A stretch of 64,000 nt of DNA from assembly GCF_024137865.1 (NCBI RefSeq), contig NZ_CP099960.1:2170001-2234000 (forward strand), given 5' to 3'. Made by a program: the position numbers and the translations under genes. The notes beneath the pieces were generated by a model. That model saw only the letters and a list, made by a program, of their open reading frames with translations. It did not search any database and was not told the DNA's origin. This stretch comes from Moraxella sp. FZFQ2102. GTDB lineage: Bacteria; Pseudomonadota; Gammaproteobacteria; Pseudomonadales; Moraxellaceae. Shown one piece after another: positions 32,216 to 63,310 of the stretch. Every line of letters starts with the position of its first letter. The first letter of the stretch is position 1.

Positions 32216-32284
32216 AACAAAAAAGCCCAAATCATCTGACTTGGACTTTTTAAAATTTGGAGCGGGAAACCCCAACCTTGGCAA
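32216..32284 (-). repeat. Left attachment-site remnant: tRNA-Gly 3' end with 18-bp deletion, plus terminator
   Basis: 32241-32270 is identical to 63218-63247, covering the CCA end, the acceptor strand and flank of tRNA-Gly. The match then resumes with cccaaccttggcaa (32271-32284), the anticodon-stem region, after skipping the 18 bases of the T arm. Upstream, aacaaaaaagcccaaa at 32216-32231 also matches 63193-63208, so the tRNA terminator hairpin is duplicated too. This is the expected second att site of an element inserted into the tRNA 3' end. Confidence 0.8.
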
Positions 32285-32616
32285 TTAGGCGACTATTTTT
32301 CGACGAATAACCTTATTTAACCTTAAATAATCTCTTTATATATCAATATCTTATGACTATTATCAGTGTGGATGCTGATTGCACGCTTTGATGGCTTTTT
32401 ATTTTTTGGCACGAAAATCAGTAGGGTAAATTTACCCCACCATTTTTCGTATTTTATCATAATTTTGAATTTTTTGCTCTTGTGTTTGCTGATGAAAGTT
32501 GCAGGTATTGATGGATTTGAATTATTTTTAATTTTATATTTTCTATTTAATAATATTAAAGATTTTTTATTCAAATCTTATAATTTGTCAGTTGGGTTTG
32601 GGATTTAGTATGCCAA
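32285..32616. other. Very AT-rich island edge, no gene recognised
   Basis: This low-complexity A/T-rich sequence just inside the left att remnant contains only short ORFs of biased composition without family features. It may be the left arm of the integrated element. Confidence 0.4.
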
Positions 32617-32686
32617 TTTTGCGGTGATTGATGGTATTATTCACCGCATATTTTGCGGAGAATATGTGGTATAATTACCGCAGATG
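32617..32686 (+). promoter_or_regulatory. CCGCA palindromes upstream of the first fic gene
   Basis: Four half-sites occur in 70 bp: ttttgcggtga (32617), then the inverted pair attcaccgca / tgcggagaat (32639-32663, one mismatch), then aattaccgcag (32674). A tataat-like element, gtataatt (about 32669-32676), overlaps the array. The Fic protein encoded next carries a C-terminal winged-helix region that could bind here, which is inference. Confidence 0.45.
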
Positions 32687-32706
32687 AGGCGAAATTGAGA
32701 ATAGTG

Positions 32707-33834
32707 ATGGTTGATACGTTTATTCATGAGTATCCAAATTGGACAGATTGGCAGCTTGATGAGGTGCAGTTGCTTCCCCTTGTTGCTCGCATTCGTTTGC
32801 TTCAGGGGCGCTTGTTGGGGCAGATGAGCAGCCTTGGGTTTGATTTACCGCTTGAAGTTAGTCTTGAAGCTTTGACATTGGAGGTGATTAAGACATCGGA
32901 GATTGAGGGTGAATATCTTAACACTGAACAGGTACGCTCTTCGGTTGCTCGGCACTTGGGTATTGAAGCGCTGTATCAGCATCAGCTTGTTACGCCAAGC
33001 TATGAAGTGGAAGCGATTGTTGAAATGATGCTTAAGGCGACTTCAGGATTTGATTTGCCACTAACCCTGGATGAAGTCTGTCGTTGGCATCATGCACTAT
33101 TCCCACAAGGGCTAAGTGGTATGTATGACATTAATGTGGGCGCATTGCGAGATGATGCCAATGGCCCGATGCAGGTGGTCTCAGGTGCCTATGGCAAAGC
33201 CAAAGTACACTTTGAAGCACCAAAGGCTGATAGATTGCCCGATGAGCTTGAGCGATTTTTTCAGTGGTATAACAATAATGAAACGGGACTTGATTTGACA
33301 ATTAAGGCGGGGCTTGCACACCTGTGGTTTGTCACGCTACATCCATTTGATGATGGTAACGGTCGCCTAACTCGTGCACTCACTGAACGGATGCTCGCCA
33401 AAAGCGATGGCAGTCCGCAGCGATTTTATAGCATGTCCGCACAAATTCTTGCCAATCGTCGTGAGTATTATCACATACTTGAACAGACCCAAAGGGGCTT
33501 AGCGTCAGCCACCGAATGGCTAATTTGGTTTTTAACCAATCTAGAAGCAGCTTTGATACAAGCACTTGCTCAGTCACAAAAGGTTGTCGCTAAGTCACAG
33601 TTTTGGCATACATATCGCCACACATCACTCAATCCACGGCAGGTAGTGATGATCAATAAGCTTTGGGGTGATTTTTATGGCAAGCTTACCACCAAAAAAT
33701 GGGCGAGTATCACAAAAGTATCCACAGATACCGCTCTAAGAGATATTAATGATTTGGTTGAAAAAGAAATTTTGGTGAAGTCGCTGGCTTCTGGGCGCAG
33801 TCAAAGTTATGAGCTGAGTTGTCTTGTAGAGTAG
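32707..33834 (+). CDS. Fic family protein (AMPylase) with N-terminal inhibitory motif and C-terminal HTH
   Basis: Fic proteins usually transfer AMP to target proteins. The 375-aa protein carries the complete active loop HPFDDGNGRLTR (near residue 215) and an N-terminal inhibitory helix of the (S/T)xxxE(G/N) type, TSEIEGEYLN (about residue 66). It is thus a self-inhibited class II Fic. The C-terminal 80 residues look like a winged helix (KVSTDTALRDINDLVEKEI). ATG 32707 is preferred over an upstream in-frame codon at 32653, which would overlap the palindromic region. It is the first island gene on the left. Confidence 0.9.
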   Translation: MVDTFIHEYPNWTDWQLDEVQLLPLVARIRLLQGRLLGQMSSLGFDLPLEVSLEALTLEVIKTSEIEGEYLNTEQVRSSVARHLGIEALYQHQLVTPSYEVEAIVEMMLKATSGFDLPLTLDEVCRWHHALFPQGLSGMYDINVGALRDDANGPMQVVSGAYGKAKVHFEAPKADRLPDELERFFQWYNNNETGLDLTIKAGLAHLWFVTLHPFDDGNGRLTRALTERMLAKSDGSPQRFYSMSAQILANRREYYHILEQTQRGLASATEWLIWFLTNLEAALIQALAQSQKVVAKSQFWHTYRHTSLNPRQVVMINKLWGDFYGKLTTKKWASITKVSTDTALRDINDLVEKEILVKSLASGRSQSYELSCLVE

Positions 33835-33860
33835 CTACAAAAAAGTTATTCATGCATGAA

Positions 33861-33924
33861 TTTGATAAAATATTATCAAAAACCACCAAAAATCCCGTAA
33901 TTTTGATAAAATAATATCAAAATT
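33861..33924 (+). promoter_or_regulatory. Paired TTTGATA-N6-TATCAAA operators upstream of hipB
   Basis: Two palindromes lie 20-80 bp before the regulator: tttgata-aaatat-tatcaaa at 33861-33880, and one with perfect 10-bp arms, aattttgata / tatcaaaatt, at 33899-33924. Spacing and symmetry resemble HipB-type operators (TATCC-N8-GGATA in E. coli), so autoregulation by the encoded XRE protein is likely. Confidence 0.6.
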
Positions 33925-33943
33925 AAACCAAGTTGAGGTGGTT

Positions 33944-34222
33944 ATGCTTCATCTGTATGACGATATTGATGCACGCTTAGCTTTGGCGGCGTATCTAAAA
34001 CAAAAACGCAAAGATGCCAAGCTATCACGCCGAGCACTGGCTGAAAAATCCTTGATTCCTGAGCCAACCATTCGTCGGTTTGAGAATACAGGTCATATTT
34101 CTTTGAAGAACTTTTTGTTATTGTGGATGATTTTGGATGATATTGCTCGGTTTATGGAATTAACCAAACCTAAAGCAATCAAACCCAAAACCATCGCCGA
34201 GGTGCTTGCTTATGATCAGTAA
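33944..34222 (+). CDS. HipB-like XRE antitoxin/regulator, orphan
   Basis: This 92-aa protein has a helix-turn-helix at about 15-70 (KLSRRALAEKSLIPEPTIRRFE), as in HipB antitoxins. The ATG at 33944 has a gaggtgg ribosome-binding site; a GTG two codons earlier is less likely. The usual downstream kinase toxin HipA is missing: an ATG overlapping the stop by 11 nt (34212) starts a stub that soon runs into unrelated sequence. The regulator and its two palindromes remain. Confidence 0.75.
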   Translation: MLHLYDDIDARLALAAYLKQKRKDAKLSRRALAEKSLIPEPTIRRFENTGHISLKNFLLLWMILDDIARFMELTKPKAIKPKTIAEVLAYDQ

Positions 34223-34462
34223 CCATCAGCCGACTCGGTATTTGAGTGTTTTGTACTGGCATATACCATTTCAATCCATCAGTATCAGCTACTCACAAAT
34301 ACGCCAGCTGATCAAGTTTTGACCGCCAAACAAGTGTCTAATGAGCTTGGCATCTCAGACAGTGCTGCTCGCAAGTTACTCAATGAACTTGAGAGCATGG
34401 GATTGGCAACCACTGTGTGTAATTGTCGTGGTAAGAGGTATTTGTTGGCGAAGCTGGGGTGA
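34212..34462 (+). pseudogene. hipA 5' stub joined to a fic 3' fragment
   Basis: From 34212 the frame MISNHQPTRYLSVLYW resembles a HipA beginning, overlapping the hipB stop as in hipBA operons. It is lost after about 20 codons. From about 34275 to 34462 the sequence is a diverged copy of the 3' end of the fic gene at 37896-38870 (LTAKQVSNELGISDS.ARKLLNELE...YLL.K). This is a recombination junction between two toxin-type loci. No functional product is expected. Confidence 0.7.
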
Positions 34463-34466
34463 AAGC

Positions 34467-34641
34467 TTTTTTGCCGACTTTCGCAAAGGCAAATGCGGTC
34501 GTGGCACTGCTAGTAAATCAATGACATTGATATGAAACATCGACAAAGAATATGGGTTTAGATTTAACTATGGCGCATCATTTAATTAGTTTAAAGTATT
34601 GAGAAATGGTGTAAGATTTGGGATTTATTTAGTACAGCCCC
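34467..34641 (+). pseudogene. IS1595 transposase relic, heavily deleted
   Basis: 34467 onward reads SFFADFRKGKCGRGTASK, a decayed version of SYFGGIRKGKRGRGAAGK of the intact copy at 51151-51804. From about 34556 the C-terminal end (RFNYG) and the terminal repeat tagtacagcccc follow. The middle of the gene is gone. It lies directly next to the end of the OLD-family gene. Confidence 0.75.
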
Positions 34642-34658
34642 TCCTTTTTTATATCAAT

Positions 34659-35102
34659 TCAGAGATCTAAAGCTAAAATAAATAGCCCCTTCAAATCATT
34701 TAATCTATCTGCATCTATTTCGTTACTCTCTAGCTTCTTAAGTATCTCAAGCGGTTTTAAGTCAGCTCTTGATGGTAAATTTAATCCTAAATAGGGCTCG
34801 ATACATTGTGGTATGAAAACTGGCTCTGCAATTTTGCAATTACAATTATAGTTTTTAAGCATATCATTTATAGCCTGATGATGGTTTTTATTTAAATCAT
34901 CATCAATTATCAATCCATATGGGATGCCAAAAATATCAAGAAGAGTCATATAACGATGAAAATTAAATTTACCAATAACATCAACAACAGCTATACGATG
35001 TTTTGTAAATGTACGCCAATCATGGTTGTTGGCCAATAACCAATTAAATAACGCCTTTTCGGTCGGACCTTCTACCAATAATACTTTATCTGCAAAGAAC
35101 AT
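34659..35102 (-). CDS. OLD-family nuclease, C-terminal TOPRIM part (separate frame)
   Basis: The 147 aa (from the first ATG) hold the TOPRIM nuclease motifs of OLD proteins: LLVEGPTEKALFNWLL with the catalytic Glu, and the Asp-rich IDDDLNKNHH. In the same frame coding similarity continues upstream to about 35192 (KLLSNSDQDEE...RYQLWLDSERSS). It therefore completes the protein begun at 36403, and the two parts are one gene of about 580 codons in a -1 relation. It could be expressed only by frameshifting, or be broken. Confidence 0.8.
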   Translation of the reverse strand: MFFADKVLLVEGPTEKALFNWLLANNHDWRTFTKHRIAVVDVIGKFNFHRYMTLLDIFGIPYGLIIDDDLNKNHHQAINDMLKNYNCNCKIAEPVFIPQCIEPYLGLNLPSRADLKPLEILKKLESNEIDADRLNDLKGLFILALDL

Positions 35103-35185: not shown

Positions 35186-36403
35186 TTAACAGTTTTTTGC
35201 TTCTGCCTTATTTTGTTCTGGAACATTGGGATTAGCTACAAAATTTTGCAGGCAAGATTTAAAGTCTAAGCCACTCGAGAAGATATTATTTAATTCCTTC
35301 GATTTTATTTGCCCTAAAGATGTTAATCCATCTTTTTTGTGAACTCGTCCTATCTGGCACAAACTGTCTGTTGCTTTTCCAACAAAAATAGGTGAATGGC
35401 TAGTGATGATGACTTGTTGCTCGTTGCCCTCTCCTAATCTTCTCAAATGATATGCCATATTTTCTTGTTGTGTTGGGTGTAAAAATGCTTCAGGTTCTTC
35501 AAATAGTATTAATGTAAAATCAGGGTTAAAATCATTCTTCTCCTGAGCGGTGTTGTTTTCATTGGATATTTCAGGCACTAATTTAATTAATTCATATAAA
35601 AAAGAACGCTGGAATCCGTGCCCATATCTATCAAGAGATAAAGCATAATCACCTAACATAGAATCAACAAATGAATGTTTAATGAGATTTTTTGTAATAT
35701 CTTCTGGGGAGATAGCACCAATAGACATATCAAACTTAATCCCCCAACTTGAAATAGCACTATTAATAGGATTTGCTATTTGATCCAAAAAACCATTTTT
35801 ATTTTTAGCTTCATCATTAAACTCCTCAAATGAAGCTACTACTTTTTGGTAAGCATGACTATTAACCAAGGCTTTTTTTAACATCAAATTCAGCATATCT
35901 CTCAAAGGAGATGATCCAGATGTTTTCATTTGTTCACTAGCTGATATAAATGCAGGGATGTAAATAATTTGCCCCAATTTTGCAGAGCCGATATTTTTAG
36001 CTCCATAAAATAGTGATTCGTCAATTACACCATCAACAATCCCGTATATATTACTCTGTCTTGGCTTTACTTTCTCTTTAGAAATAAAATACTTACGAAC
36101 AGTTAAATGCTTTTCTCCAGTTCCTTTATATTTATCTGCTAATGCATTCCATTCCCCATCGGTCAATTCAAATGTTAGTTCAACCCAACTTTCTATTTCC
36201 ATTTCATTTTCTGATGTAACCTTCTGAAATCTTGGTTCATCATCTTTTGTCCACGGAATATTTTCATAAAAAGCTCGTAATGCAGCCATAATATTGCTTT
36301 TACCTGCATTATTTGCACCAACTAACATCGTATAGTTATGAACTTCTATTTCAACATCATGAATAGAACGGAAGTTTTTAATATGGATTTTTCGTAATTT
36401 CAT
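35186..36403 (-). CDS. OLD-family ATP-dependent endonuclease, ATPase part
   Basis: This 405-aa ABC/SMC-like ATPase has an N-terminal Walker A in MLVGANNAGKSNIMAALRAF (about 27-46), a coiled middle, and ILFEEPEAFLHPTQQ (Walker B) with the switch ITSHSPIFVGK near the end. OLD nucleases act in anti-phage defence or DNA processing. The frame ends at TGT TAA right after the heptamer A AAA AAC (35192-35198 on plus). A -1 shift there continues exactly into the TOPRIM domain. An aggagt ribosome-binding site precedes the start. No helicase partner (gajB type) is adjacent. Confidence 0.88.
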   Translation of the reverse strand: MKLRKIHIKNFRSIHDVEIEVHNYTMLVGANNAGKSNIMAALRAFYENIPWTKDDEPRFQKVTSENEMEIESWVELTFELTDGEWNALADKYKGTGEKHLTVRKYFISKEKVKPRQSNIYGIVDGVIDESLFYGAKNIGSAKLGQIIYIPAFISASEQMKTSGSSPLRDMLNLMLKKALVNSHAYQKVVASFEEFNDEAKNKNGFLDQIANPINSAISSWGIKFDMSIGAISPEDITKNLIKHSFVDSMLGDYALSLDRYGHGFQRSFLYELIKLVPEISNENNTAQEKNDFNPDFTLILFEEPEAFLHPTQQENMAYHLRRLGEGNEQQVIITSHSPIFVGKATDSLCQIGRVHKKDGLTSLGQIKSKELNNIFSSGLDFKSCLQNFVANPNVPEQNKAEAKNC

Positions 36404-36467
36404 AAAATTACTCCTAAAACATTATATATGCTTATTCTGTGCCACATCAGTAATGCATGGTTGGTCA

Positions 36468-37679
36468 TCATCCACCCAGAATCTCTCTCAAAAATACCCT
36501 CAAACTCAAACACTGTATCCCTTCAAAAGTATTGCCGTCAAATTCGTCCATTGTCACCACATATTTCGGGTAGTTGTCTTGGATTTTCAGCAGGTTGCCA
36601 AATTCTCGCTCAAGTGTTTTTTCTTCATTAATGGTCAGCGCCGCCTGCACATATATACGTTCACCATCCTTCTCTGCCACGAAGTCAATTTCTTGGCTAT
36701 TTAAACCGCCGATTTTGACATCATAACCTGCGATTTGAAGATGATTGAATATGCAGTTTTCAAGCAATTTGCCACGATCTTGTACCCGATAGCCAATCAG
36801 GGCGTTTCGCAAACCTAAATCTTCAAAATAGTATTTTTCGCCAATCTCAAAAATGCGTTTACCTTCAATATCATAGCGTGGTACTTTGTGAATTAAAAAG
36901 GCGTTGGCAAGATATTCCGCATAATTTTGTACCTGCATGCTTGATGTGGTAATTTTCTGCGATTTTAAAAAATCAGAGATTTTTTTAGCAGAAAACAAAT
37001 TGCCAATATTGCTTGCTAAAAATTGCGTAAGCTGCTCTAAAAATTGCACATTTCGCAATGAATAACGGTTCACAATATCCCGAATGGCAATGGTGGAATA
37101 AATATTTCGTAGATATTCAAACACGATGTTGTCTTGCAACGGCAAGTCTTTCAAATAAGGCAAACCGCCATATTTCAAAAACAGTGACATCGATTTATCG
37201 CTATCGTCCAGTTTCATAAATTCAAGAAATTCAAAATAGGACAGGGAGTGGACATTAATTTCAATCGCTCGCCCACTCAGGCTACCTGCAATATCCCGTG
37301 AAAGCAAATGAGCATTGCTACCCGTGCAATACAAATCCAATTCGTCATCTAATAAAAGCGAACGCAACGCTTGTTCAAAATCTGTAATTTCTTGAATTTC
37401 ATCGATAAAAATGTAATTTTTTTGACCGCTCTTTTTCTGCTCTTGCACAAAATCATTCAGGTGCTCTGCGGTTGTAATGTGACTAAATGCCAAGTCTTCT
37501 TTGTTGATATAAATAATGTGGGCATTTTCATCCACTGTTTGAATCTCTTGCATAATCTGAAACAGCAAATAGCTTTTGCCTACACGGCGTTGCCCAGTAA
37601 ACACTTTAATCAAACGTTTTCCGATAAACGGGCGTACCATTTCAAGGTATTTTTGGCGATAAACTAAATCTTTTTTCAC
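36468..37679 (-). CDS. AAA ATPase with DUF4143 domain
   Basis: The 403-aa protein has Walker A TGQRRVGKSYLLF at about 29-41, Walker B YIFIDEIQE at about 90, and a sensor region CTGSNAHLLS. A C-terminal DUF4143 nuclease-like domain follows (EIDFVAEKDGERIYVQAA near 325). This family of ATP-binding proteins is widespread and its function is poorly known. Translation probably starts at the GTG at 37679, preceded by taggat. It is divergent from the second fic gene, with a long inverted repeat between them. Confidence 0.88.
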   Translation of the reverse strand: MKKDLVYRQKYLEMVRPFIGKRLIKVFTGQRRVGKSYLLFQIMQEIQTVDENAHIIYINKEDLAFSHITTAEHLNDFVQEQKKSGQKNYIFIDEIQEITDFEQALRSLLLDDELDLYCTGSNAHLLSRDIAGSLSGRAIEINVHSLSYFEFLEFMKLDDSDKSMSLFLKYGGLPYLKDLPLQDNIVFEYLRNIYSTIAIRDIVNRYSLRNVQFLEQLTQFLASNIGNLFSAKKISDFLKSQKITTSSMQVQNYAEYLANAFLIHKVPRYDIEGKRIFEIGEKYYFEDLGLRNALIGYRVQDRGKLLENCIFNHLQIAGYDVKIGGLNSQEIDFVAEKDGERIYVQAALTINEEKTLEREFGNLLKIQDNYPKYVVTMDEFDGNTFEGIQCLSLRVFLREILGG

Positions 37680-37716
37680 GGTAAAATCCTAAAACTATAA
37701 TTGCTATTTTAGCTTA

Positions 37717-37758
37717 ATATAGAAAAAGTTTCAATTATACTTGAAACTTTTTCTATAT
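37717..37758. promoter_or_regulatory. Perfect 18-bp inverted repeat between DUF4143 ATPase and fic
   Basis: Arms atatagaaaaagtttcaa (37717-37734) and ttgaaactttttctatat (37741-37758) are exact complements around 6 nt. A third half-site, agtttcaagtata, follows at 37766-37778. It lies 38 bp upstream of the ATPase GTG, so it fits an operator better than a terminator. Confidence 0.6.
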
Positions 37759-37800
37759 ATACAAAAGTTTCAAGTATAAACTAATTACCATAAAGTCAAT

Positions 37801-37880
37801 TAGCGACAAACTGAGATAAAATACGATAATTTACGACAAATTACGATAAAATAAGGTAAAATACGATAAATTGCGACATT
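37801..37880 (+). repeat. Eight tandem 10-bp repeats directly upstream of fic
   Basis: Eight consecutive decamers follow the pattern NtacgataaA: tagcgacaaa, ctgagataaa, atacgataat, ttacgacaaa, ttacgataaa, ataaggtaaa, atacgataaa, ttgcgacatt. TACGATAA is exact at 37822, 37842 and 37862. The period equals about one helical turn. The array ends 15 bp before the fic ATG. Confidence 0.8.
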
Positions 37881-37895
37881 TTATGGAAAATAACG

Positions 37896-38870
37896 ATGAA
37901 ATTACCCAAGCCACCTACTTTATCAGAACTAGAAGCGGGGGATATTTCGTCTGTGCTTTTGGGGTATTTGGCAGAGCATCCACCGATAGATGCCAAGGGG
38001 CGTTATTTGTCATGGGAGCAGTTTTTCTATCGTCACCCAGCTGACAGCAAACGGCGCTGGCTTACCCAAAAACTCAACCGTCACGCCATCATGCAGTCGA
38101 TGCATATTGGTGGCTATCAATTCTCGTATTGCTTACCACAAAGCCTACAAGCCAAGCTATATCACATTGAGCATCACTATCAGCAATGGCAATGGCCTAT
38201 TGATACCGAAGAGCTGCTCTTTGAAGAGCCGATTACCAGTGCTCAGCTTGAAGGTGCATCTACCACACGCAAGGTTGCTAAAGAGCTACTCGGCAGTCGC
38301 CGTGCACCTATGAATAAAAGCGAGGTGATGATTGTCAATAATTATCACTTGATGCAAGCGGTGAAACAACAAATAAATCAACCGCTTGATATCACTATGA
38401 TTTTGCAATTGCACCGAATCGCTACAGAGGGTGCGATTGACAATGATGCGATTTCGGGTGAATTTCGCCAAGATGATGAGATTGTCATTGCTGATTATGA
38501 CGGGCAAATTGTTCACCAGCCTCCTACATGGCAGACGCTACCGACCTTGATGCAGGCGTATTGCGAATTTGCCAATGCAGATCATCAAGGGGATGGCTTT
38601 ATCCATCCGATTGTCAAAGCGATTATTCTGCAATCTATGCCAAAATCCGCACCTGCAAATCTAGCTGTTGATTATAGCAATCTTAGCATCCATCAGTATC
38701 AGCTACTCACAAATACGCCATCTAATCAGGTTTTGACCGCCAAACAAGTATCTAATGAGCTTGGCATCTCAGACAGTACCGCTCGTAAGCTACTCAATGA
38801 ACTTGAGAGCATGGGATTGGCAACCACTGTGCGTAATGGTCGTGGTAAGGGGTATTTGTTGGTGAAGTAG
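37896..38870 (+). CDS. Fic-like protein lacking the catalytic loop
   Basis: This 324-aa relative of Fic/DUF4172 proteins has an N-terminal DUF4172-like region, the inhibitory-type motif TSAQLEGAST (about residue 115), and the Fic helices through GFIHPIVKAIIL. At the point where HPFxxGNGRxxR should follow within about 20 residues, the frame goes straight to QSMPKSAPANLAVDYSN and then the C-terminal winged helix (KQVSNELGISDSTARKLLNE). The catalytic segment of perhaps 50 residues is missing in frame. The product should not AMPylate but could still bind DNA. Its 3' end is duplicated at 34275-34462. Confidence 0.82.
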   Translation: MKLPKPPTLSELEAGDISSVLLGYLAEHPPIDAKGRYLSWEQFFYRHPADSKRRWLTQKLNRHAIMQSMHIGGYQFSYCLPQSLQAKLYHIEHHYQQWQWPIDTEELLFEEPITSAQLEGASTTRKVAKELLGSRRAPMNKSEVMIVNNYHLMQAVKQQINQPLDITMILQLHRIATEGAIDNDAISGEFRQDDEIVIADYDGQIVHQPPTWQTLPTLMQAYCEFANADHQGDGFIHPIVKAIILQSMPKSAPANLAVDYSNLSIHQYQLLTNTPSNQVLTAKQVSNELGISDSTARKLLNELESMGLATTVRNGRGKGYLLVK

Positions 38871-39930: not shown

Positions 39931-40197
39931 TTATTTGAAATAGACTGTTTTGGTAAGTTGTTGCTCATAGGTATTTTGTAAGTCCAGCCAAAATCTAGAA
40001 CTATTGCCAAAATACTGTGCCAAACGCAAGGCAGTGTCTGCACTAATACCACACCGTCCACTGATAATATCATGAACATGATTAGGCGCAATGCCCAAAA
40101 ACTCAGCCAAAGTCGCTACTGACAACCCTAAAGGTTTTAAAAATTCTTCACGCAGTATCTCACCCACATGAATTGGTCTCATGCTGTTGTTGGACAT
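39931..40197 (-). CDS. higA: HigA-family antitoxin (VapI-like XRE), orphan
   Basis: This 88-aa protein opens with RPIHVGEILREEFLKPLGLS, the signature of HigA/VapI addiction-module antitoxins, and has an XRE helix-turn-helix (VATLAEFLGIAPNHVHDIISG). HigB toxin genes normally lie immediately upstream. Here only about 65 bp separate the start from an inserted IS3 element (from 40267), with no higB beyond it. The toxin has been lost. Confidence 0.82.
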   Translation of the reverse strand: MSNNSMRPIHVGEILREEFLKPLGLSVATLAEFLGIAPNHVHDIISGRCGISADTALRLAQYFGNSSRFWLDLQNTYEQQLTKTVYFK

Positions 40198-46232: not shown

Positions 46233-46469
46233 TGTTAAGCTCCTGCTTTTTTATTATGAGCATCTACCCAAACACATATATTTGGAAAATATGTTTGCGA
46301 AAGTTAGAAAAATTCACATTGGTTTTAATAGAGTGATTGTCTTTACCCTAACTAAAAATCTTCAAATAATATCAGTATGATAAATTTTTCTAGAAATACT
46401 AATAAATTGTCATCTATTAATTCTATGATACAATAATTTAAATTGAATTACATTAATTATTTGTCAATA

Positions 46470-46884: not shown

Positions 46885-46915
46885 ATCTATTCCTAATTGA
46901 CAAAATATAGTAAAA

Positions 46916-52265: not shown

Positions 52266-53821
<1,556 letters not shown>

Positions 53822-53929
53822 ATCATCATCTTGAAAAAAGTTACCGATATGATACTGTAAAGTTTGATAAATAGCAATTTGAAATTGGTAACTCTTTTCA
53901 ATATGAACAAGTTAAGTGATATTGATAGC

Positions 53930-54580: not shown

Positions 54581-54735
54581 GGTGGTATCTTGAAAAAGGT
54601 TTCGGTTATCATATATGAAAAGGTGGATGGGGTCAAGTTGTGACTTTGCAATTAATACCAAAACAAGATCTGATTATTTGATGACAATGATGTATCTGCA
54701 CGCAGACACATCATTGGCTATGCTTGGCTAACAAT

Positions 54736-57700
54736 CTAAACTGTGAAAGCATCAATCCCCACCACCAATAAAAAGCATACATGTTGCAATATGGCAACGC
54801 CATTATGCTTCTTGTTATCGATGGTATAGGTATTTGATATCAAAAATCCCGTATAAGAGCTATTTGCACGAGTTGATTTTTTGGCAATGATTGTGGTTTC
54901 TTGCTTTAATTGAACCAATTCTTGCTTTAGATTGATAGGCTTTTTAACATCAGACCTAGCAGCAACTTCTATCCGCCAATACTTTTTGTCGCGTAGCTTG
55001 ACAGCGATTTGTGCAAATCGATAAACTTGCGAGCGATTCTTAAAAGGCATTCGCATCTGACCGCTCACAAAGCTTGCACCGCGTAAAATCACCACAAAAT
55101 CATCAAATGCTTTGCGATCTGCCTGATATAAATCACCCAATTTTTTAAGTAAATTGTGTAGTAAAGTGATTTCCTGCTTGATTTTGGGCGTGATCGGTAG
55201 ATATTGATTTGGATTCTTTTTGCCTTTATCCCCAAAATAGGATGTTAATTGTTTACGATGCGTGTCAATATAACTCTTAATCTTCTCAGCCTTGATCGAA
55301 TCCAAGCCTTCGGGTTTGGCGTGCTCAAATGAGTAATTATCTTGCAGACTCTCCAAAAACTTCATCACAGCTGCATGTACATCAATCCTTAAAATATCAG
55401 GCATCTGATTTTTGCTTGGTGCTTTGTGTGACGTGATTTTGATGGCAGGTAGTGTAACACGAGCAGGTCTGCGATAACAATTGGCACCCAATTGCCTGAT
55501 TATCAATGTGCGAATATCATTTAGATTCACCATGCCGCTAACTTTATCATAGGCACGACGTCCATTGTCGCTAAAACTTTGGCGACGAAGTCCTGTCAAT
55601 GCCTCCACTAAAGGTGCAGGCATTTCTATTGTTGCATGAGCCATTTGACTATACGCAATCAAATCAGCCACATGAATGTAGCTAGAAAATGTCGTTTCGG
55701 GCGATGAATGGCCGGCAAATTCTGCCAAGACGCTCCATGCTGTTGTCGATATCTGATGACATTCACCCAAAAACTTGCGCTTAATCGCCAATATCTCATC
55801 GCTGCTATAATCACTAAAATATGGTAAGAGCGCATCCGCACCACCCAAAATCATCGCCATCACACTGATGGCATTATGGCGAAAGCCATGCGGGGTCACC
55901 TTATAAGGCAAAGTATCCAATATCACCGAGATTGGCTTTTGGATTTCATGATATTCAAGCGCACTCGATTTGTGCTCTAGCGTCAAAAAGTAAGTCTCAT
56001 TTCTTTGTTTGCGTAACAAATACCACTCATGCACCAATTGTAGTTCGGATGGCTTGAGCAATGCTTGCAGACAAAACCTGCGACGACCATCATCAGATTT
56101 AATACTACGATAACCATTGGGACGTACCAAAATATTTAGGATGACTGTTTGTTCTTGCTTGTAATCATACTCAAAATCCCTAAGTTTAAGTCCCAAGAGC
56201 TCATTGATCCGCATGCCTGTGCGATACAAAAGAATAAAGATGATGTCCAATATTTTTTGATTATGCTCACTGAGTGTCGATAAGTGTATCAGATTGCGGA
56301 TATGCTGATACATAATAGGTGCGACAAGGACGGGCTCAACCACCATGCCATCGCTTTTACTTGCAATTGCGACACCGGGAATGCTCACAAAATGCCTTTG
56401 CAAAGATTGATGTAAGGATCTGAGTACAGTTGCTGTGTAACCTATCTTCTTCTTATTGGAATGATAAATAATGTTTTCATACAAATTGATAAAATCATCG
56501 TCATTCCAAGTGGTTATGTCTTGATCTTGCACAACATGTAAAAACCAATCGCCAACCTCGCTTAAATAGCGTTTGGCACTTGTAGATTGATGACGTTTGA
56601 TACCTGCAGATTTTACGCCGTCAAGTAGATCGCTTATCCAGTAAATCAGACCCAACTGGGCACTTATTTGTGTCTGACTGGCAAGCACCTTAAGCGATTC
56701 GATGGCTGTGGCGTTAGTTTGATTTAGGGTATTTCTTATTTCACGCACTAGATCGGATTTATATACAGCTGGTTTATCGGTTGGCTCTGCCTTGCCTTTT
56801 TTGATGGTCATAGTGGTACTAAACAGCTCATCGGATAGTGTCACTGACAACAGTTTAAAGCTTGGTGAGTGATAGTTTTTCCAATGATCGCTACTGATGC
56901 TCGTGTGCTTTTGCTGATTGCCGACAATGGCAGACATTTGCATATCCAGCTGTGAATTATTAAAGGTTTGTCTGGCAAGATACAAACCCTTTTGTATTGC
57001 ATTAAAGTGATGGGGCTGTGGTTTCTTGACTTGCAGACAGGTCTGCATCAGTCGATCGAACGCCTGCTGGGTTTGCTCAAATGTCGGCATTTTGCTTTGT
57101 GGATGGCGATTGATATAAGCGATCCACAGCAAACTGACATCATCAATGATGATATGGTAAGTGACAAATAACAAAGCGTCGGCATTATCTGCCACATCGA
57201 TCAGCATAGACGAGCTGGACATGGAATGATATCCATAGCTTTTACTAGGGATGTCTACAGTCAGTATCAGTGCATTGCCCAGCCTAAGTAGCGGCTTTTT
57301 CTCAATGATATACTGATAGATTTGCTGCCTAATCCGCTCATCTTGTACACCAGTATAAATCCAAAGATTTGCATATAATGCAGCAAATACTTGTGCCAAA
57401 TTCATCTGACTCAAGCTCTCTTGACAAGTGGATAGCAGTTGAGCTATTACTTGGTAGGCCTCATTAAGCCATGTCATAGTGTCCTTTGATTCAATTGTAT
57501 TTTTGCCTCGCCCAATCCCAATTTGTGATTGCGTTATAGGTATGGGTGAGTTAGACGACTTTTTAAGGAGATTGAAATACTGAGCTATGTGCCGATCCAC
57601 CAAAATAGAGTCGCTATTTGGATGATGTGTTTTGATATTCTGCTGAATGAATTGATAGAGTGTGTTATACGCATCCTCAGTTGGGTGTCCGTCAGATTGG

Positions 57701-57780
57701 CTGATAAGCCGCTCATGATGAATCCTGCAAGCTTCATGCACAATTGATCGCAAATTTGTGATGCGAGTTTTAGTTGCCAT
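54736..57780 (-). CDS. Large tyrosine recombinase, third gene of a three-gene module
   Basis: This 1014-aa protein has a catalytic tyrosine recombinase domain in its middle (about 490-710): LLYRTGMRINELLGLKL (Arg I, about 521), a Lys-containing beta turn (YRSIKSDDGRRRF), PHGFRHNAISV (HxxR, about 632), and FAGHSSPETTFSSYIHV (His and nucleophile Tyr, about 690-703). An N-terminal region of about 480 residues and a C-terminal region of 300 residues are unassigned. It overlaps the preceding gene by 11 bp. It is followed by umuD after 155 bp. Confidence 0.85.
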   Translation of the reverse strand: MATKTRITNLRSIVHEACRIHHERLISQSDGHPTEDAYNTLYQFIQQNIKTHHPNSDSILVDRHIAQYFNLLKKSSNSPIPITQSQIGIGRGKNTIESKDTMTWLNEAYQVIAQLLSTCQESLSQMNLAQVFAALYANLWIYTGVQDERIRQQIYQYIIEKKPLLRLGNALILTVDIPSKSYGYHSMSSSSMLIDVADNADALLFVTYHIIIDDVSLLWIAYINRHPQSKMPTFEQTQQAFDRLMQTCLQVKKPQPHHFNAIQKGLYLARQTFNNSQLDMQMSAIVGNQQKHTSISSDHWKNYHSPSFKLLSVTLSDELFSTTMTIKKGKAEPTDKPAVYKSDLVREIRNTLNQTNATAIESLKVLASQTQISAQLGLIYWISDLLDGVKSAGIKRHQSTSAKRYLSEVGDWFLHVVQDQDITTWNDDDFINLYENIIYHSNKKKIGYTATVLRSLHQSLQRHFVSIPGVAIASKSDGMVVEPVLVAPIMYQHIRNLIHLSTLSEHNQKILDIIFILLYRTGMRINELLGLKLRDFEYDYKQEQTVILNILVRPNGYRSIKSDDGRRRFCLQALLKPSELQLVHEWYLLRKQRNETYFLTLEHKSSALEYHEIQKPISVILDTLPYKVTPHGFRHNAISVMAMILGGADALLPYFSDYSSDEILAIKRKFLGECHQISTTAWSVLAEFAGHSSPETTFSSYIHVADLIAYSQMAHATIEMPAPLVEALTGLRRQSFSDNGRRAYDKVSGMVNLNDIRTLIIRQLGANCYRRPARVTLPAIKITSHKAPSKNQMPDILRIDVHAAVMKFLESLQDNYSFEHAKPEGLDSIKAEKIKSYIDTHRKQLTSYFGDKGKKNPNQYLPITPKIKQEITLLHNLLKKLGDLYQADRKAFDDFVVILRGASFVSGQMRMPFKNRSQVYRFAQIAVKLRDKKYWRIEVAARSDVKKPINLKQELVQLKQETTIIAKKSTRANSSYTGFLISNTYTIDNKKHNGVAILQHVCFLLVVGIDAFTV

Positions 57781-60067
57781 ACGCCACCATCCCTTGTAGT
57801 TGAAGTTGTTTTGCCATTACCTCAAAAGCATCTGCGACACCTTTTATTGAACCCAGTCCCAGTGAGCTTGTCGTGCGTAACAATTCTTGTCCCGCCAGTT
57901 CATGACCATAGATCGCCAGTATGAGTGTTTCGGACACATCTAGCTTTTCGGCTAAATAACTTCGCACAAAATGCCTTGCCCAGTTATCTGGCATTGACCA
58001 ATCCTTGATGCCAATATTTTGCATGGCTGACGGTCTGATTTCACTTAGGTGCAAATGTTCATCGACAGTATTGAGTAATGCTCGATCACCCGACAAAATT
58101 TGATCAATGGCGGTAGCAAGCGTTGAAGAGCGAAACCCAATACTTTGTTTGACATGGCGTAAAAACGCGACATATTGCTTGATTTGCGTGATTAAAAATG
58201 GACACAATGGCACTATTCGGGCATTCCCATGGCTGCGCTGTTGTTTGTCACTGACGCGCAATAAGCCCAAATCAAGATCGTATTGAGATAAAGCGCCCGG
58301 TGAGCCAATCACAGGGCGCACACTGGTCAATAGCAAGGATAATTGCCACAGCCAAGCTGCATAGGCATTAAAATATGCAATAAAGCTATCATTACTATGA
58401 TCGTTGTCATAACGTTGTTTGAGCTGTATAGCGTTTTCGCGAAGTGCTTGCATGATCTTGCTTACAGCCTGTGGTGTGACTACATGATAACTGCCGATTG
58501 TTTGGCTTTGTTCATCTGCATCAAGCATATCTACGGATAGCAATTGATGCAATGCTGGTGAAATTTGTTTGATGGCACTTAGGTAGTTGTCTAATATCTT
58601 CTGTTTCGGCAGACTACAATAAAAAGAGCTTGCCATCTTTTTGTTATTACGTCCTGTGATGACAGATGCCAGCAGTATATCAGCAGTTTGAGAAATTAAA
58701 GTTTTGTAAAGCAGATTTTTTAGCCGATTTTCAGTTAATAAGGGTAAATTGCATTCGATTTTTAGCACACCAATCAATTCAATGATTTGTGCTTGCATTT
58801 CATTTTTATTGATGTGTTTGTATTGGCTGATGATATGCTGATGAATAGCATCTGGCAAGGGTAATGAGAGCGTATTGCTACCGTTTTGTAGCATGTCGAA
58901 TTTTTGAGTGAGTGCATTAGATGCTTGTGGACTGATTGTGACTATGACATCAAACCTTGGTGATTTGCGATCCATGAGTCTATGTGTTTTCTCGCAAGAG
59001 GTTAAATCTGCAATCAGTTCTTCAAATAATCGACCTGTACAAATGACAAGCAGTAGCCATGCAGCCGCGTCTTGATAACGCCCACCGGCATTAAAAAACC
59101 ATAGCAGCTGATTGCACACTTTATAAGCCAGCTCAATCGGCATAGTTCGCAAACTGGTATCGGACATAAACTCATTCAGATTGGCGTGATTATGGGCGGC
59201 TTGAGTGCGTTTGATCACCAACCGTATGTCATATTTTTCTGCACTACTAAGCTGTTTATTGTTAATGCCAATGACAGTGCGGGTTTGCCTTTCATCCAGT
59301 GGTATTTTCTCAAAGCTTTCTCGACTACTGTCACGCTGCCAGATTAACATCTCAGACAGCTCGATCGCATCAATATCAGCATCGTAGTCGTGGGGAATGA
59401 CTTCAAACTGGGCGGCTTTACGAGCGTTTTTATCTTTCCCGCGCTCTTTAGCACTCTTGCTGCGCCCTGAGGTAAGTTTTTGTTCGTAGCAAGACTGAAG
59501 AATGAGAAGCAAGTCATGGTACATCGCTTGCTCTGATGAGTCATAGCGGTGTGCTTCGTTTTGCTCAAAATCCTGCATACGATCCAGCATAAGCTTTAGC
59601 GAATCAGCTTTTAATAGATCAGTACTTGCCGTCCATACGCTATAATGATTTGACCTTGGATTGCTGCGAACCCGTAGAAACTGGCTGGTGCTTTTGATGC
59701 GGATGCGATCATTTTGAGCGATAAAATAACACAGACATTGGCACAGTTTGCCGATTAATTGCCACTGCCCATCAGGGTGATTGGCATCAAACTCACTATT
59801 GACATGGTATAAACTGGCTAAAGCAGACTGTAGCTCATGGTATTCATCCTGAGTCATTCTTCCTTTATATTTGCGAAATATCTGATGAAGTTTATCTTTA
59901 CTAACAATACATGGCTCATGTGTAGGGATGTGAATATGATCTGCGATGCGTGGTACACAAGATGCAAGAGTGCACAGACAATTTCTCAGGTATGTCAGAT
60001 CATCTTGAGTTGGTGAGCTTAAATCAGTATTTTTATCATTGAGTGTCAAGTAGCGATCAAAGCTCAT
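57770..60067 (-). CDS. Degenerate integrase-like protein, second gene of the module
   Basis: This 765-aa protein has a C-terminal part that looks like a tyrosine recombinase fold: LLLTSVRPVIGS (Arg region, about 580), RSHGNARIVPLCPF (strand), NWARHFVRSYLAEKL (HxxR, about 700) and IYGHELAGQELLRTTSSLG. No tyrosine stands where the nucleophile is expected. It probably works with the 1014-aa recombinase. ATG 60067 has an aagggggt ribosome-binding site. The gene overlaps both neighbours by 11 bp, suggesting translational coupling. Confidence 0.78.
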   Translation of the reverse strand: MSFDRYLTLNDKNTDLSSPTQDDLTYLRNCLCTLASCVPRIADHIHIPTHEPCIVSKDKLHQIFRKYKGRMTQDEYHELQSALASLYHVNSEFDANHPDGQWQLIGKLCQCLCYFIAQNDRIRIKSTSQFLRVRSNPRSNHYSVWTASTDLLKADSLKLMLDRMQDFEQNEAHRYDSSEQAMYHDLLLILQSCYEQKLTSGRSKSAKERGKDKNARKAAQFEVIPHDYDADIDAIELSEMLIWQRDSSRESFEKIPLDERQTRTVIGINNKQLSSAEKYDIRLVIKRTQAAHNHANLNEFMSDTSLRTMPIELAYKVCNQLLWFFNAGGRYQDAAAWLLLVICTGRLFEELIADLTSCEKTHRLMDRKSPRFDVIVTISPQASNALTQKFDMLQNGSNTLSLPLPDAIHQHIISQYKHINKNEMQAQIIELIGVLKIECNLPLLTENRLKNLLYKTLISQTADILLASVITGRNNKKMASSFYCSLPKQKILDNYLSAIKQISPALHQLLSVDMLDADEQSQTIGSYHVVTPQAVSKIMQALRENAIQLKQRYDNDHSNDSFIAYFNAYAAWLWQLSLLLTSVRPVIGSPGALSQYDLDLGLLRVSDKQQRSHGNARIVPLCPFLITQIKQYVAFLRHVKQSIGFRSSTLATAIDQILSGDRALLNTVDEHLHLSEIRPSAMQNIGIKDWSMPDNWARHFVRSYLAEKLDVSETLILAIYGHELAGQELLRTTSSLGLGSIKGVADAFEVMAKQLQLQGMVAYGN

Positions 60068-60611
60068 TGTAAACCCCCTTAGTAGGCAAGCCACTAGCGT
60101 ATAGATAATCAACCAAACTAAACGCTGGTAGATCGGTTTTTACTCGTTGCAGCCTTCGAGCATTCTTAAGGTCATCGTAGCTCCAACCACCTAAGGCGCA
60201 GATATATTGATGTGTTCTCTTTCCATCAAAAATTACTTCGCTTTGTTCAAAAAGCATTTGCTCAATATCAGGCTCTATTTTGCCCCGCCTAACAAACAAG
60301 TCGCATAATTCTAAACCTATGGTGCGCATTAGCATCTTATCCGATACAGCCTCGTTGGTTTTATCAATTTGAACCTTGATGCTTGGCTGATCTATTTGGC
60401 GGATAAAAGCCAGATAATTTTTAACCAATCGATATTCGGTAGCTGAAAGCTTGACAACAACAGGTGGGTGTTGGTCTGGGTCGATATCTAGCACAGGCAT
60501 AGGCATAGTCGCGCCGTACCTACCTATCAGTTCAGCCATAGGGATGCATTTGGGATGGATACGGATAAAATGTCTTTGTATTTGCACAGATTTTTTATTT
60601 TCAACTTTCAT
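60057..60611 (-). CDS. Small first gene of the recombinase module
   Basis: This 184-aa protein is not recognised. It is basic at the N terminus (KVENKKSVQIQRHFIRIHPK), helical in the middle and ends with SLVDYLYASGLPTKG. ATG 60611 follows an aaggaat ribosome-binding site. It starts the operon 60611-54736 and overlaps the next gene by 11 bp. Small partner proteins are found in other multi-gene recombinase modules, but homology is not shown. Confidence 0.7.
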   Translation of the reverse strand: MKVENKKSVQIQRHFIRIHPKCIPMAELIGRYGATMPMPVLDIDPDQHPPVVVKLSATEYRLVKNYLAFIRQIDQPSIKVQIDKTNEAVSDKMLMRTIGLELCDLFVRRGKIEPDIEQMLFEQSEVIFDGKRTHQYICALGGWSYDDLKNARRLQRVKTDLPAFSLVDYLYASGLPTKGVYNEL

Positions 60612-60835
60612 AGTGATTCCTTTATATTGTTGATTATTTTGATTTAACAAATAATTAAATCATCTTGATTGTACAATAAAATTTATAAAAATCTCAAAAT
60701 ATTTATTAGTTTAATTGCAAATATAGTTTGCTGAGCGTTACCTTAAATGACACAAAATAACAAAACCGCCTGAATATTTCCAGACGGTATGTAAATTTTC
60801 TAAAATATATATTAAATCTAACACATTTGTATCAC
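60612..60835. promoter_or_regulatory. Promoter region of the recombinase module
   Basis: AT-rich gap of about 220 bp. A weak hairpin (aaccgcctga ... ccagacggt at about 60763-60789) may end the leftward transcript of 60836. No clear promoter boxes. Confidence 0.35.
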
Positions 60836-61135
60836 TCATCCTGATGGGAACTGATGTACAAAGTAAGATTCTAGATCATAATACAGCTGATCAAAGGTGT
60901 AGTCATTAAGTGTTTGTGCACTTAATGCTTCTACTTGACCCATCACCCATCGCCAGATTGCCAAGTAGTTTTGATAGCATGGGCTGACACCAAGAAAATA
61001 ACACAGGCCATGCCCTTCTTGGATGTTGAGTGAGATAATCAGCTGCTTGGTCAGCTTACTGGTCAATTGCATGGCTGTCATTGAGTTAAGTGATTGATTG
61101 CTCTTTGGTTGAGTGCTTGCAAATAGATTGTTCAT
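60836..61135 (-). CDS. Hypothetical protein next to integrase
   Basis: This 99-aa protein is not recognised (AMQLTSKLTKQLIISLNIQE, GLCYFLGVSPCYQNYLAIW). It lies 29 bp downstream of the integrase gene on the same strand and is probably cotranscribed with it. Confidence 0.55.
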   Translation of the reverse strand: MNNLFASTQPKSNQSLNSMTAMQLTSKLTKQLIISLNIQEGHGLCYFLGVSPCYQNYLAIWRWVMGQVEALSAQTLNDYTFDQLYYDLESYFVHQFPSG

Positions 61136-61164
61136 AAATACATTCCTTAAAATCAGTCATTGAG

Positions 61165-62340
61165 TTAGCTGGCTTGTTCAAGTTGGCTGTTTAGTAGTAA
61201 TGCCTCAAAAGCACTGCCATCACGACGAGTGGCGTTTGGTACATAACGGCTATACACCTTAAATAGCATCATGGTATTGACATGACCCATTTGCCGTGCA
61301 ATCCATTCAGGTGCTTCTCCTGCTGATAGCCACAATGTCGCAGCTGTGTGTCTGGTCTGATAAGCACTTCTTGGCTTTAACCCAAGGTTTTTTAGGGTTG
61401 GATGCCAAATACGGCGATTGACATTGTGATAGTCAAGCGGCTCTCCAGTGTGCGAACAAAAGACAAATTTGGATTTACCATAGCTCACCTGATACTGTGC
61501 TTTGAGTGCTTCAAAAACAAATGGCGACATCATAATCTCACGATTGGATTCTACTGTTTTAGGCTCACCCATCACGCCATTGACCAATGCTTGTCTGATA
61601 CAGATTTCTTTTCTTTCAAAATCCACATGCTCCCATGTCAATCCATCAATTTCACTGGTGCGCATACCGGTAAAGAATCGCACGATATAGTAGTTTTTAT
61701 AATCAGCGCGCACACCGTGGATGAATCGCCACACTTCATCAATACTAAACGGCTCAATCTGTGATTTTGACGTCTTTAACTTCTTAATATCTTCACAAGG
61801 ATTGTTAAAGTTGTAGCGTTTTGACGCTTCTTTTAGTATCATAGCCAATGTGGTCATAATTGCATTGATTCTGGCTGCAGACAGGGTGTTCTTGGTATTA
61901 TTGTAGGTCACTTTGGCGAGGGAACTACGAAATGCCAAGACATCCGACTTTTCAATCATAAATAAAGCCCGATTTGCAAACTTAGGCAATAAATACTTGT
62001 TTAGAATAATCATAATTTTCTCCTGATAAGTTTTACGCCATTCAATCTGCTTTTCTTCAAACCACAGCTCTGCAAACTCTTTAAATAACGGCGTATCGCT
62101 TTGTAGGCTTAATCGTCGGTTATTGAGCTCATCAAAATAGGCAGCCTTATCACTCTTTGGGAAATACTGCTCATAACGAAAGCTACCCAATAAAATCTCC
62201 GCTTCCATCTTCTCAAGCACCTTAGCAAGCTTTTTACGATTTGCCGGTGTGTCAGTCAGATTGGTTGTTTCTCGGCAGCGTTTGCCTAGATATCGAAAAT
62301 CGACAATCAATTTGTTGTATCGCTTGGTAATTGTTGCCAT
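61165..62340 (-). CDS. int: Tyrosine site-specific integrase of the island
   Basis: This 391-aa phage-type integrase has an N-terminal arm-binding domain of DUF3596 type (about 1-80), a SAM-like core-binding domain (about 85-190), and the catalytic domain with FTGMRTSEIDGLTWEHVDF (Arg I, about 230), YQTRHTAATLWLSAG (HxxR-type, about 329) and MGHVNTMMLFKVYSRYVPN (His and Tyr, about 352-366). It lies 0.9 kb from the 3' end of the tRNA-Gly gene, which is the likely attB. Its own small partner (62355-62570) is directly upstream. Confidence 0.94.
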   Translation of the reverse strand: MATITKRYNKLIVDFRYLGKRCRETTNLTDTPANRKKLAKVLEKMEAEILLGSFRYEQYFPKSDKAAYFDELNNRRLSLQSDTPLFKEFAELWFEEKQIEWRKTYQEKIMIILNKYLLPKFANRALFMIEKSDVLAFRSSLAKVTYNNTKNTLSAARINAIMTTLAMILKEASKRYNFNNPCEDIKKLKTSKSQIEPFSIDEVWRFIHGVRADYKNYYIVRFFTGMRTSEIDGLTWEHVDFERKEICIRQALVNGVMGEPKTVESNREIMMSPFVFEALKAQYQVSYGKSKFVFCSHTGEPLDYHNVNRRIWHPTLKNLGLKPRSAYQTRHTAATLWLSAGEAPEWIARQMGHVNTMMLFKVYSRYVPNATRRDGSAFEALLLNSQLEQAS

Positions 62341-62354
62341 ATTACTTTACTCTC

Positions 62355-62570
62355 CTATTGTAGTGCCATACCATTAATACTACCCATAATGCCAGTACGC
62401 ATATCTTTTTCAATCTGCTCCCAGATATACAAGATCTTGCGACCACCAAATGGTCTAAAGTAATGAATGCCTTCAATCAATACAGAATCCTTTAGCTGAT
62501 TGCGAATGGTACGCTCATCATATTTAATCATCTGCGAAAGCTCTTGAGTGGTGAGGTAGGTTTGTGTCAT
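62355..62570 (-). CDS. Excisionase / AlpA-like DNA-binding protein
   Basis: This 71-aa protein has a winged-helix-like beginning, YLTTQELSQMIKYDERTIRNQ, and the strand GIHYFRPFGGRKILYIW, typical of excisionase-type directionality factors adjacent to integrases. ATG 62570 has a ggaga ribosome-binding site; the alternative at 62582 is less well placed. It ends 14 bp before the integrase start. Confidence 0.8.
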   Translation of the reverse strand: MTQTYLTTQELSQMIKYDERTIRNQLKDSVLIEGIHYFRPFGGRKILYIWEQIEKDMRTGIMGSINGMALQ

Positions 62571-62611
62571 AATATTCTCCATTTGAAGTCAAAAATATAA
62601 ATATCGAAATC

Positions 62612-62690
62612 TTAAAAACTTCTTTTGAAGTATTTTGTACTTCGATAGAAGTATATTAGCGTATTTTGTTATTCGATGCAAGTACTTTTT
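62612..62690. promoter_or_regulatory. GAAGTA palindromes between excisionase and XRE genes
   Basis: gaagta-ttttg-tacttc (62627-62643) is a perfect 6-bp dyad, overlapped by acttc-tttt-gaagt (62618-62631). Further half-sites follow: gatagaagtata (62644) and gatgcaagtac (62675). They cover the divergent promoter between 62570(-) and 62712(+), as in repressor-controlled integrative elements. Confidence 0.6.
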
Positions 62691-62711
62691 GCAAAAAAAT
62701 TGGAGTTTTTG

Positions 62712-62930
62712 ATGATTAAAAGCAATTTACCGGTATTATTGGCACAAAGACGATTGAAAGTTGCAGATCTGATTCGCATGACGGGGATTAGTAAATCCAC
62801 AGTACATAAGATTTACAATGACCAAACAACACGGATTGATTTTGAGACGATTGATAAAATTTGTGAGGCGTTAGATGTGCAAGTAGGGGATATTTTTGAG
62901 CATGTGCCAAATTCGGAGTTAACCAAATAG
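62712..62930 (+). CDS. XRE-family regulator of the island
   Basis: This 72-aa Cro/CI-like protein has a helix-turn-helix at about 12-60 (LKVADLIRMTGISKSTVHKIY) followed by TIDKICEALDVQVGDIFEHV, a pattern of the YozG/plasmid-type regulators. ATG 62712 follows ggag. It is divergent from the integrase operon and probably binds the GAAGTA palindromes. Confidence 0.85.
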   Translation: MIKSNLPVLLAQRRLKVADLIRMTGISKSTVHKIYNDQTTRIDFETIDKICEALDVQVGDIFEHVPNSELTK

Positions 62931-63076
62931 GATTGTGAGTGCCAACAAGAAATATTTTATGATTTACAAAATACTTCTTGTTGGCAAATTACTTATTTAT
63001 ACTTAAGATTGAAAAAGATGGCATAAAAACGAGTTGGGGTCAAATTGGCAATTTACACTGTGTGTCAAAAAACACC

Positions 63077-63148
63077 TTTGGTCACCAAAGTGGACACCTT
63101 TTGGTCACCATCAAAATCGGCAGTGACCAAGTAAAGAAAAGTGGTCAC
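63077..63148. repeat. GGTCACC repeats near the right attachment site
   Basis: Four related sites occur in 72 bp: tttggtcaccaaa (63077, odd palindrome), ttggtcacca (63101), agtgaccaag (63122, inverse) and gtggtcacac (63141), plus tggacacc at 63091. Regular short sites beside an att site resemble integrase arm-type sites. A short open frame over this area (62978-63184) has no family features. Confidence 0.4.
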
Positions 63149-63192
63149 ACAACAATACAAATAAACAACTACCCAAACCCTTGATTTTAAAC

Positions 63193-63247
63193 AACAAAAA
63201 AGCCCAAACCGTTCGATTTGGACTTTTTAAAATTTGGAGCGGGAAAC
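63193..63247. repeat. Right attachment site: tRNA-Gly 3' end and terminator
   Basis: 63218-63247 is an exact 30-bp copy of 32241-32270. It covers the tRNA CCA end, part of the acceptor arm and the adjacent terminator (aaaaaagcccaaa ... tttggacttttt). The tRNA remains whole on this side. Confidence 0.85.
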
Positions 63248-63310
63248 GAGATTCGAACTCGCGACCCCAACCTTGGCAAGGTTGTGCTCTACCAACTGAG
63301 CTATTCCCGC
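63235..63310 (-). tRNA. tRNA-Gly (anticodon GCC)
   Basis: The minus strand folds as a full 76-nt tRNA with encoded CCA. The acceptor is gcgggaa / ttcccgc with discriminator T, the D arm is agctcagttggtagagc, the anticodon stem-loop is caacc-ttGCCaa-ggttg, the variable loop gggtc, and the T arm gcgag-ttcgaat-ctcgt. Its 3' end serves as the island's insertion site. It is followed by a terminator hairpin. Confidence 0.96.

Follow-up and report, generated by a model that had tools for sequence, protein, structure and literature searches.

What carried some 31 kb of accessory DNA into a glycine tRNA gene of Moraxella sp. FZFQ2102, and how did the genes now found there come together? The locus that raises this question lies in a stretch of 64,000 nucleotides (hereafter the window; positions 2,170,001 to 2,234,000 of contig NZ_CP099960.1) of a genome of 2.336 Mb held on one contig. 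We conclude with high confidence that this DNA is a site-specific integrative genomic island at tRNA-Gly(GCC), modular in its construction, with fixed ends and exchangeable cargo. An initial annotation had proposed a 31-kb island in this tRNA gene, and both its target and its integrase type are borne out and consistent across the genus, as judged from 22 Moraxella genomes inclusive of its own (labeled G000 and so on, with contigs as C numbers).

Attachment sites and limits of the island

The island runs from 32285 to 63279 (30,995 bp, one copy of the recombination core included) and ends on the right within an intact tRNA-Gly(GCC) gene on the minus strand (63235-63310), which had been recognized from the outset and is the sole tRNA detected by ARAGORN and Rfam (the latter covering 31000-64000). 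On the same strand, this gene has a promoter-like site (TTGACG, 16 nt, TATAAT; 63363-63390) and a downstream terminator-like hairpin (63197-63228) that falls within a repeat shared with the other end of the island. The left attachment site (32216-32284, minus strand) consists of a displaced tRNA-Gly 3' half with its terminator. The two ends are linked by an exact 30-bp direct repeat (32241-32270 and 63218-63247), which is enclosed, together with the terminator, by a 55-bp repeat at 91% identity (32216-32270 versus 63193-63247). At up to three mismatches, a 25-base stretch of this repeat (32245-32269) has two occurrences in the window, with none obtained from 100 shuffles. Beyond the repeat, bases 32270-32284 (ccccaaccttggcaa) are identical to 63265-63279 in the anticodon arm, a match placed 18 bp further along in the intact gene; hence, the left copy is a tRNA 3' half from which 18 bp of the intact gene, making up most of the T-arm, are missing. 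The repeat with the tRNA CCA end that was first annotated is indeed exact, but it is really part of this longer, damaged 3' half.

The left site starts at the core 7-mer, TTGGCAA (TTGCCAA on the tRNA strand), which is found at 32278-32284 and again in the anticodon loop at 63273-63279. With the crossover in the anticodon loop and a damaged left site, the limits originally drawn at 32241-63217 (30,977 bp) had to be corrected to those given above. The same breakpoint recurs in the genus: seven displaced tRNA 3' halves, drawn from six genomes (the window, G020:C3, G003:C24, G003:C4, G011:C55, G021:C19, and G010), all begin exactly at the core 7-mer. The base before the core is A in 7/7 of these and C in 19/19 tabulated intact tRNA-Gly copies, a tabulation that excludes the mutated copy of G009:C21 and the intact copies in G008 and G017. 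The island-side sequence upstream of the core is common to the window, G020, Moraxella cuniculi, and G011. The GC content of the island (38.1%) compares with 46.0% in the left flank and 43.3% across 63311-74000. Given the position of the core at 63273-63279, the 3' part of the intact tRNA-Gly should itself derive from the island.

We propose that, in a circular form, the 7-bp core (TTGCCAA on the tRNA strand) would directly precede a complete tRNA-Gly 3' half, and that the tyrosine integrase of the island would recombine this core with the identical 7-mer that a chromosomal tRNA-Gly(GCC) has in its anticodon loop. The incoming half would restore the tRNA, and the native half would be displaced to the far end, at 32216-32284. 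Since the displaced half lacks most of its T-arm, precise excision would leave a broken tRNA-Gly copy, and the island is probably partly locked in.

The integrase and the adjoining three-gene module

The tyrosine integrase (61165-62340, minus strand), annotated from the start directly inside the right end, combines Arm-DNA-bind_2 and Phage_integrase domains, matches phrog_1 of PHROGs, and is the probable enzyme for the tRNA-Gly site. The XRE regulator likewise assigned to this end is a Cro/C1-type gene (62676-62930, plus strand) divergent from the integrase operon. For the excisionase-like gene, a 75-aa open reading frame (ORF; 62355-62582, minus strand) does occupy the right position, but its sole Pfam match is a helix-turn-helix (HTH) below the cut-off and its sole PHROGs match is weak. 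From its place and size this ORF might act as the excisionase, and the Cro/C1-type protein as the repressor. When fragments of one gene are merged and matches at 24-36% identity excluded, the integrase family has 13 clear places in the 22 genomes; nine adjoin an intact tRNA-Gly(GCC), at three others (G009, the second G010 site, and G011:C55) the neighboring copy is partial or mutated, and one (G013) falls at a contig end. The tRNA-Gly site thus belongs to the integrase family and not to the window alone. In the window itself, the island has an intact tRNA gene at one end and a displaced fragment that reads in the same direction at the opposite end, with an integrase gene inside and adjoining an end.

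Next to the integrase, beyond a 99-aa ORF that is also present in the sister islands (60836-61135, minus strand), lie three overlapping minus-strand genes, namely gene A (197 aa; 60057-60650), gene B (780 aa; 57770-60112), and gene C, which codes for a 1014-aa tyrosine recombinase (54736-57780). The catalytic residues of gene C (R524, K561, H631, R634, H691, and Y701) are kept in all ten aligned sequences. Genes A and B have no family match; gene B shows recombinase-like residues, with R599, K623, R713, and H737 kept in ten of ten aligned sequences and the place of the second His taken by Asn in nine and Asp in one. In the window, and likewise in a second island that this genome carries, its product lacks a Tyr over the 30 residues that follow H737; the idea that the gene B family as a whole has lost its Tyr was rejected, as one is found at +9 from H737 in 3/10 sequences and at +19 in 6/10. 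A relation of gene B to recombinases is unconfirmed by family or profile searches: hhalign of gene B versus gene C is not significant (E 0.27), the sole match in a PDB profile search, an XerC-like one, is likewise not significant (E 0.15), and an AlphaFold model built from a two-sequence alignment is uninformative (mean pLDDT 31.6).

Relatives of the two large genes are found on plasmids (260 records for gene C, 254 of them from Acinetobacter, and 252 for gene B, 250 from Acinetobacter), all at below 60% identity. All nine annotated plasmid regions examined have a small ORF followed by two large genes; the small ORFs show 13-24% identity to gene A with no invariant column, and kinship is not established. 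The middle gene of a Dinoroseobacter region is not among the gene B search matches. UmuDC was considered as a constant partner of the module and rejected, being present on plasmids in one of the nine annotated regions. Within the genus, gene C occurs at seven places in five of the 22 genomes, and a wider scan of genome contigs gave two relatives, both from Moraxella. Divergent three-gene modules were also seen beside a displaced tRNA-Gly half, at G003:C4 8558-20000 and in the stretch L075 1-15200; nearby ORFs have motifs that we take to be those of Rhs or contact-dependent polymorphic toxin genes.

Gamma-Mobile-Trio (GMT) islands couple a three-gene recombinase module to defense cargo, and the present island is like them on both counts. 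However, identity of the module with GMT was rejected by an NCBIfam scan and by the GmtY profile (NF040693, used with its own cut-off), which had zero matches over the cut-off in the genome and four weak ones that fall in neither island. As a tentative and rather doubtful proposal, genes A-B-C might form an unnamed three-protein recombination system common to Moraxella tRNA-Gly islands and Acinetobacter plasmids, in which gene C with its full catalytic set, partnered by a gene B product with Asn or Asp for the second His and (in the window's family) no Tyr, would move or rearrange cargo such as defense and catabolic genes independently of the tRNA integrase.

The position of the module raises the alternative that the module itself brought the island to tRNA-Gly and that the single integrase is a later neighbor. 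All seven places in the genus with a gene C match lie in or near a tRNA-Gly island end (that of G020 only if two contig ends are joined); gene A of G003:C4 begins about 150 bp from the displaced half, and an unassigned ORF preceding the broken module of G010 begins about 110 bp from one. Yet the integrase family occurs without a gene C match in genomes G004, G009, G013, and G019 and on contigs G003:C16 and G011:C1, with an intact tRNA-Gly beside the integrase in the gene C-free G004, G019, G003:C16, and G011:C1, and the two large module genes also reside on Acinetobacter plasmids, all of which makes such an origin improbable. Still less credible is a degenerate prophage or phage satellite, which the phage-type integrase (phrog_1) and the divergent repressor-like gene would fit, but for which scans of a subset of the window ORFs with Pfam (30 proteins), NCBIfam, and PHROGs found no structural phage genes, and in scans of viral contigs the integrase and gene C each had a single weak match (25% and 29%, respectively), whereas gene B had none. 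Tandem tRNA-Gly pairs do exist in the genus (G004, G006, G010, and G019), but the reading of the repeat as a remnant of such a pair, with the 31 kb as a lineage-specific insertion between the copies, is the least plausible of all and already disfavored, for in 7/7 cases (G009 not being in the table) the displaced copy is a 3' half with its break at the same base and not a whole decayed gene, and the island-end sequence upstream of the cut is common to the window, G020, M. cuniculi, and G011.

Common ends and exchanged cargo

The modular construction of the integrative island at tRNA-Gly is seen in comparison with a complete island in M. cuniculi DSM 21768 (G003:C24, 520-42624; tRNA-Gly at 42,655 and displaced half at 520). 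This island matches the window over 2.1 kb at the left end (32219-34275; 94.5% DNA identity) and 11.1 kb at the right end (52311-63427; 89.5%). Between these ends, the six cargo ORFs scanned include a catechol dioxygenase, ring-hydroxylating dioxygenase subunits, a muconate-lactonizing-type enzyme, and a transporter of the major facilitator superfamily. With the same ends and different cargo, the island is a modular integrative element. The common left end codes for a Fic protein (DUF4172 + Fic; 32653-33834, plus strand), with ~98% amino acid identity in M. cuniculi and the G020 metagenome-assembled genome, and an HTH protein (33938-34222, plus strand); the right end adds a UmuC-like polymerase (52538-53821) and a UmuD-like S24 peptidase (53930-54661), both on the minus strand, to the three-gene module and the integrase. 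We suggest that the cargo between the left (Fic) and right (UmuDC, module, and integrase) ends could be replaced by homologous recombination between islands. Attachment-like junctions that join a distal end, a tRNA 3' half, and integrase-side DNA are present in G020 and G010. Separately, at G020:C3 23861-24150 a displaced half is followed by about 210 bp of extra integrase-side sequence; such a junction would be expected of an island that is in tandem or was once circular.

The accessory genes and insertion sequence (IS) elements reported between the ends were recovered, with the defense calls given here being profile matches (PADLOC and Pfam). From the left, the cargo comprises an OLD-like TOPRIM piece (Old/Gabija-like; 34659-35102, minus strand), in a frame separate from that of the next ORF, an AAA_15 ATPase piece with Old as its best PADLOC match (35186-36403, minus strand), an AAA_14/DUF4143 protein that is the PADLOC candidate PDC-S01 (36468-37679, minus strand), a second Fic-like protein (37896-38870, plus strand) just under the Pfam Fic cut-off and called SoFic by PADLOC, and an HTH_3 protein (39931-40197, minus strand). 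Three IS copies, the first (40267-41492) with an rve-type transposase on the minus strand and the others at 43961-45186 and 46993-48218, are identical across 1,226 bp. An IS1595-family transposase lies at 51151-51804 (minus strand), with fragments of related DNA at 34544-34641 and 48236-48463. Ten more ORFs between 42 and 52.3 kb yielded no Pfam match in nine cases and a lipoprotein signal only in one. Among the small ORFs, those at 43276-43650 and 45813-46232 are paralogous, with further repeats at 46466-46978 around a predicted lipoprotein; the repeats at 43-47 kb may constitute an immunity- or lipoprotein-like array.

The same chromosome (G000:C1) has its second island of this family, in inverted orientation, at 882595 to about 922900. 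It abuts a second tRNA-Gly(GCC) at 882,595-882,670, within the one further full-length match that the tRNA-Gly region has in the genome (882,595-882,712), and a stretch of it matches window positions 54747-63431 at 93.8%. Its cargo includes hsdR-, hsdM-, and hsdS-like genes of a type I restriction-modification system together with matches to ZorA, ZorB, ZorC, and ZorD (Zorya). A 2.2-kb block (36466-38640), which includes the PDC-S01 candidate, is 99.7% identical between the two islands, whereas the three longest of the other common blocks stand at 93-94% and two shorter ones at 98.3% and 95.1%; this difference suggests a recent exchange of cargo between the two resident islands. About 120 bp upstream of the window tRNA (63311-63431, the promoter region) are also common to the other tRNA-Gly of this genome, the region being different in other genomes; either gene conversion or duplication would account for this.

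Several observations weigh against the reading of a mobile island acquired at this site. The junction predicted for an empty site, joining the outer-membrane protein (OMP) side with tRNA-Gly and murU, was not found in any of the 21 other genomes. Of the core genes annotated on both sides, those further left are conserved, but the OMP reading frame beside the left end (31336-31977) has no match in the 21 other genomes. Compared with relatives, the murU side has undergone rearrangement: tRNA-Gly is next to murU at none of 18 other murU loci, as judged from short flanks only, with tRNA-Val(TAC) there in 11 of the 18, and in G020 murU is past the far end of an island and not beside the tRNA. The second island has no recognizable distal site in 875,001-935,000 or in a search of the whole chromosome; rho lies beyond its cargo and, in G003:C16, upstream of ppx, and its distal end thus appears rearranged. 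Relaxase and transfer genes, as in integrative mobilizable or conjugative elements, are absent among the 30 window proteins scanned with Pfam, and mobility itself (excision and a circular form) is something that we infer. As to amino acid identity with M. cuniculi, the 78-100% of nine backbone proteins against the 60-95% of six neighboring core proteins with a match in the fetched stretches favors transfer between species; however, one core protein of 912 aa (95%) reaches the level of the backbone, and within the backbone the module protein of 780 aa (78%) is no closer than some core proteins.

The chromosome, then, is rearranged around these islands. In place of the predicted junction, the displaced halves and the complete island of M. 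cuniculi lend support to the island, as does the ppx-tRNA-Gly twin site, which in G021, G005, and G012 is free of the integrase family but may hold other inserted DNA. Beside the left attachment site, the OMP region (31236-31977) is seemingly split into two overlapping frames. At G012:C1 526966 and 2344739 and at G005:C4, the two flanks of tRNA-Gly, upstream and downstream, occur in different combinations, as if swapped by recombination between tRNA-Gly copies.

Relation to known elements and significance

The same arrangement is known from Islander, a resource of islands in tRNA genes, in which 2083 of 3919 islands have anticodon-centered sites (PMC4383910); the class of mechanism proposed here is thus an ordinary one. 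The island resembles those of Islander in restoring its target, in having the displaced 3' fragment at the far end, and in its tyrosine integrase beside the tRNA, and it differs from them in nothing essential, although its left fragment is damaged (PMC4383910). The three-gene module resembles strand-biased circularizing elements (SEs), GInts, RITs, and the Tn554 group, all multi-recombinase elements, in having several adjacent recombinase genes, and SEs and GInts also include one protein without the full catalytic set (PMC10214605). Compared by gene number and catalytic content only, SEs, GInts, and Tn554 have two products with the RHRY motif, whereas the window module has one (gene C) together with the residue-depleted gene B and a small protein (PMC10214605). 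Among the literature matches listed, titles and abstract openings held no account of the island family or of the module.

The island is therefore an ordinary and known kind of mobile DNA, and what surprises is confined to a cargo that can be exchanged while the ends stay fixed and to the uncharacterized three-gene module. With a Moraxella island family whose ends are exact, the turnover of cargo becomes trackable: in related islands of one genus it takes the form of phage-defense genes, of an OLD-like gene accompanied by IS copies, or of a catabolic cluster, and the presence of two such islands in one genome, with their nearly identical block, suggests that cargo passes between resident islands.

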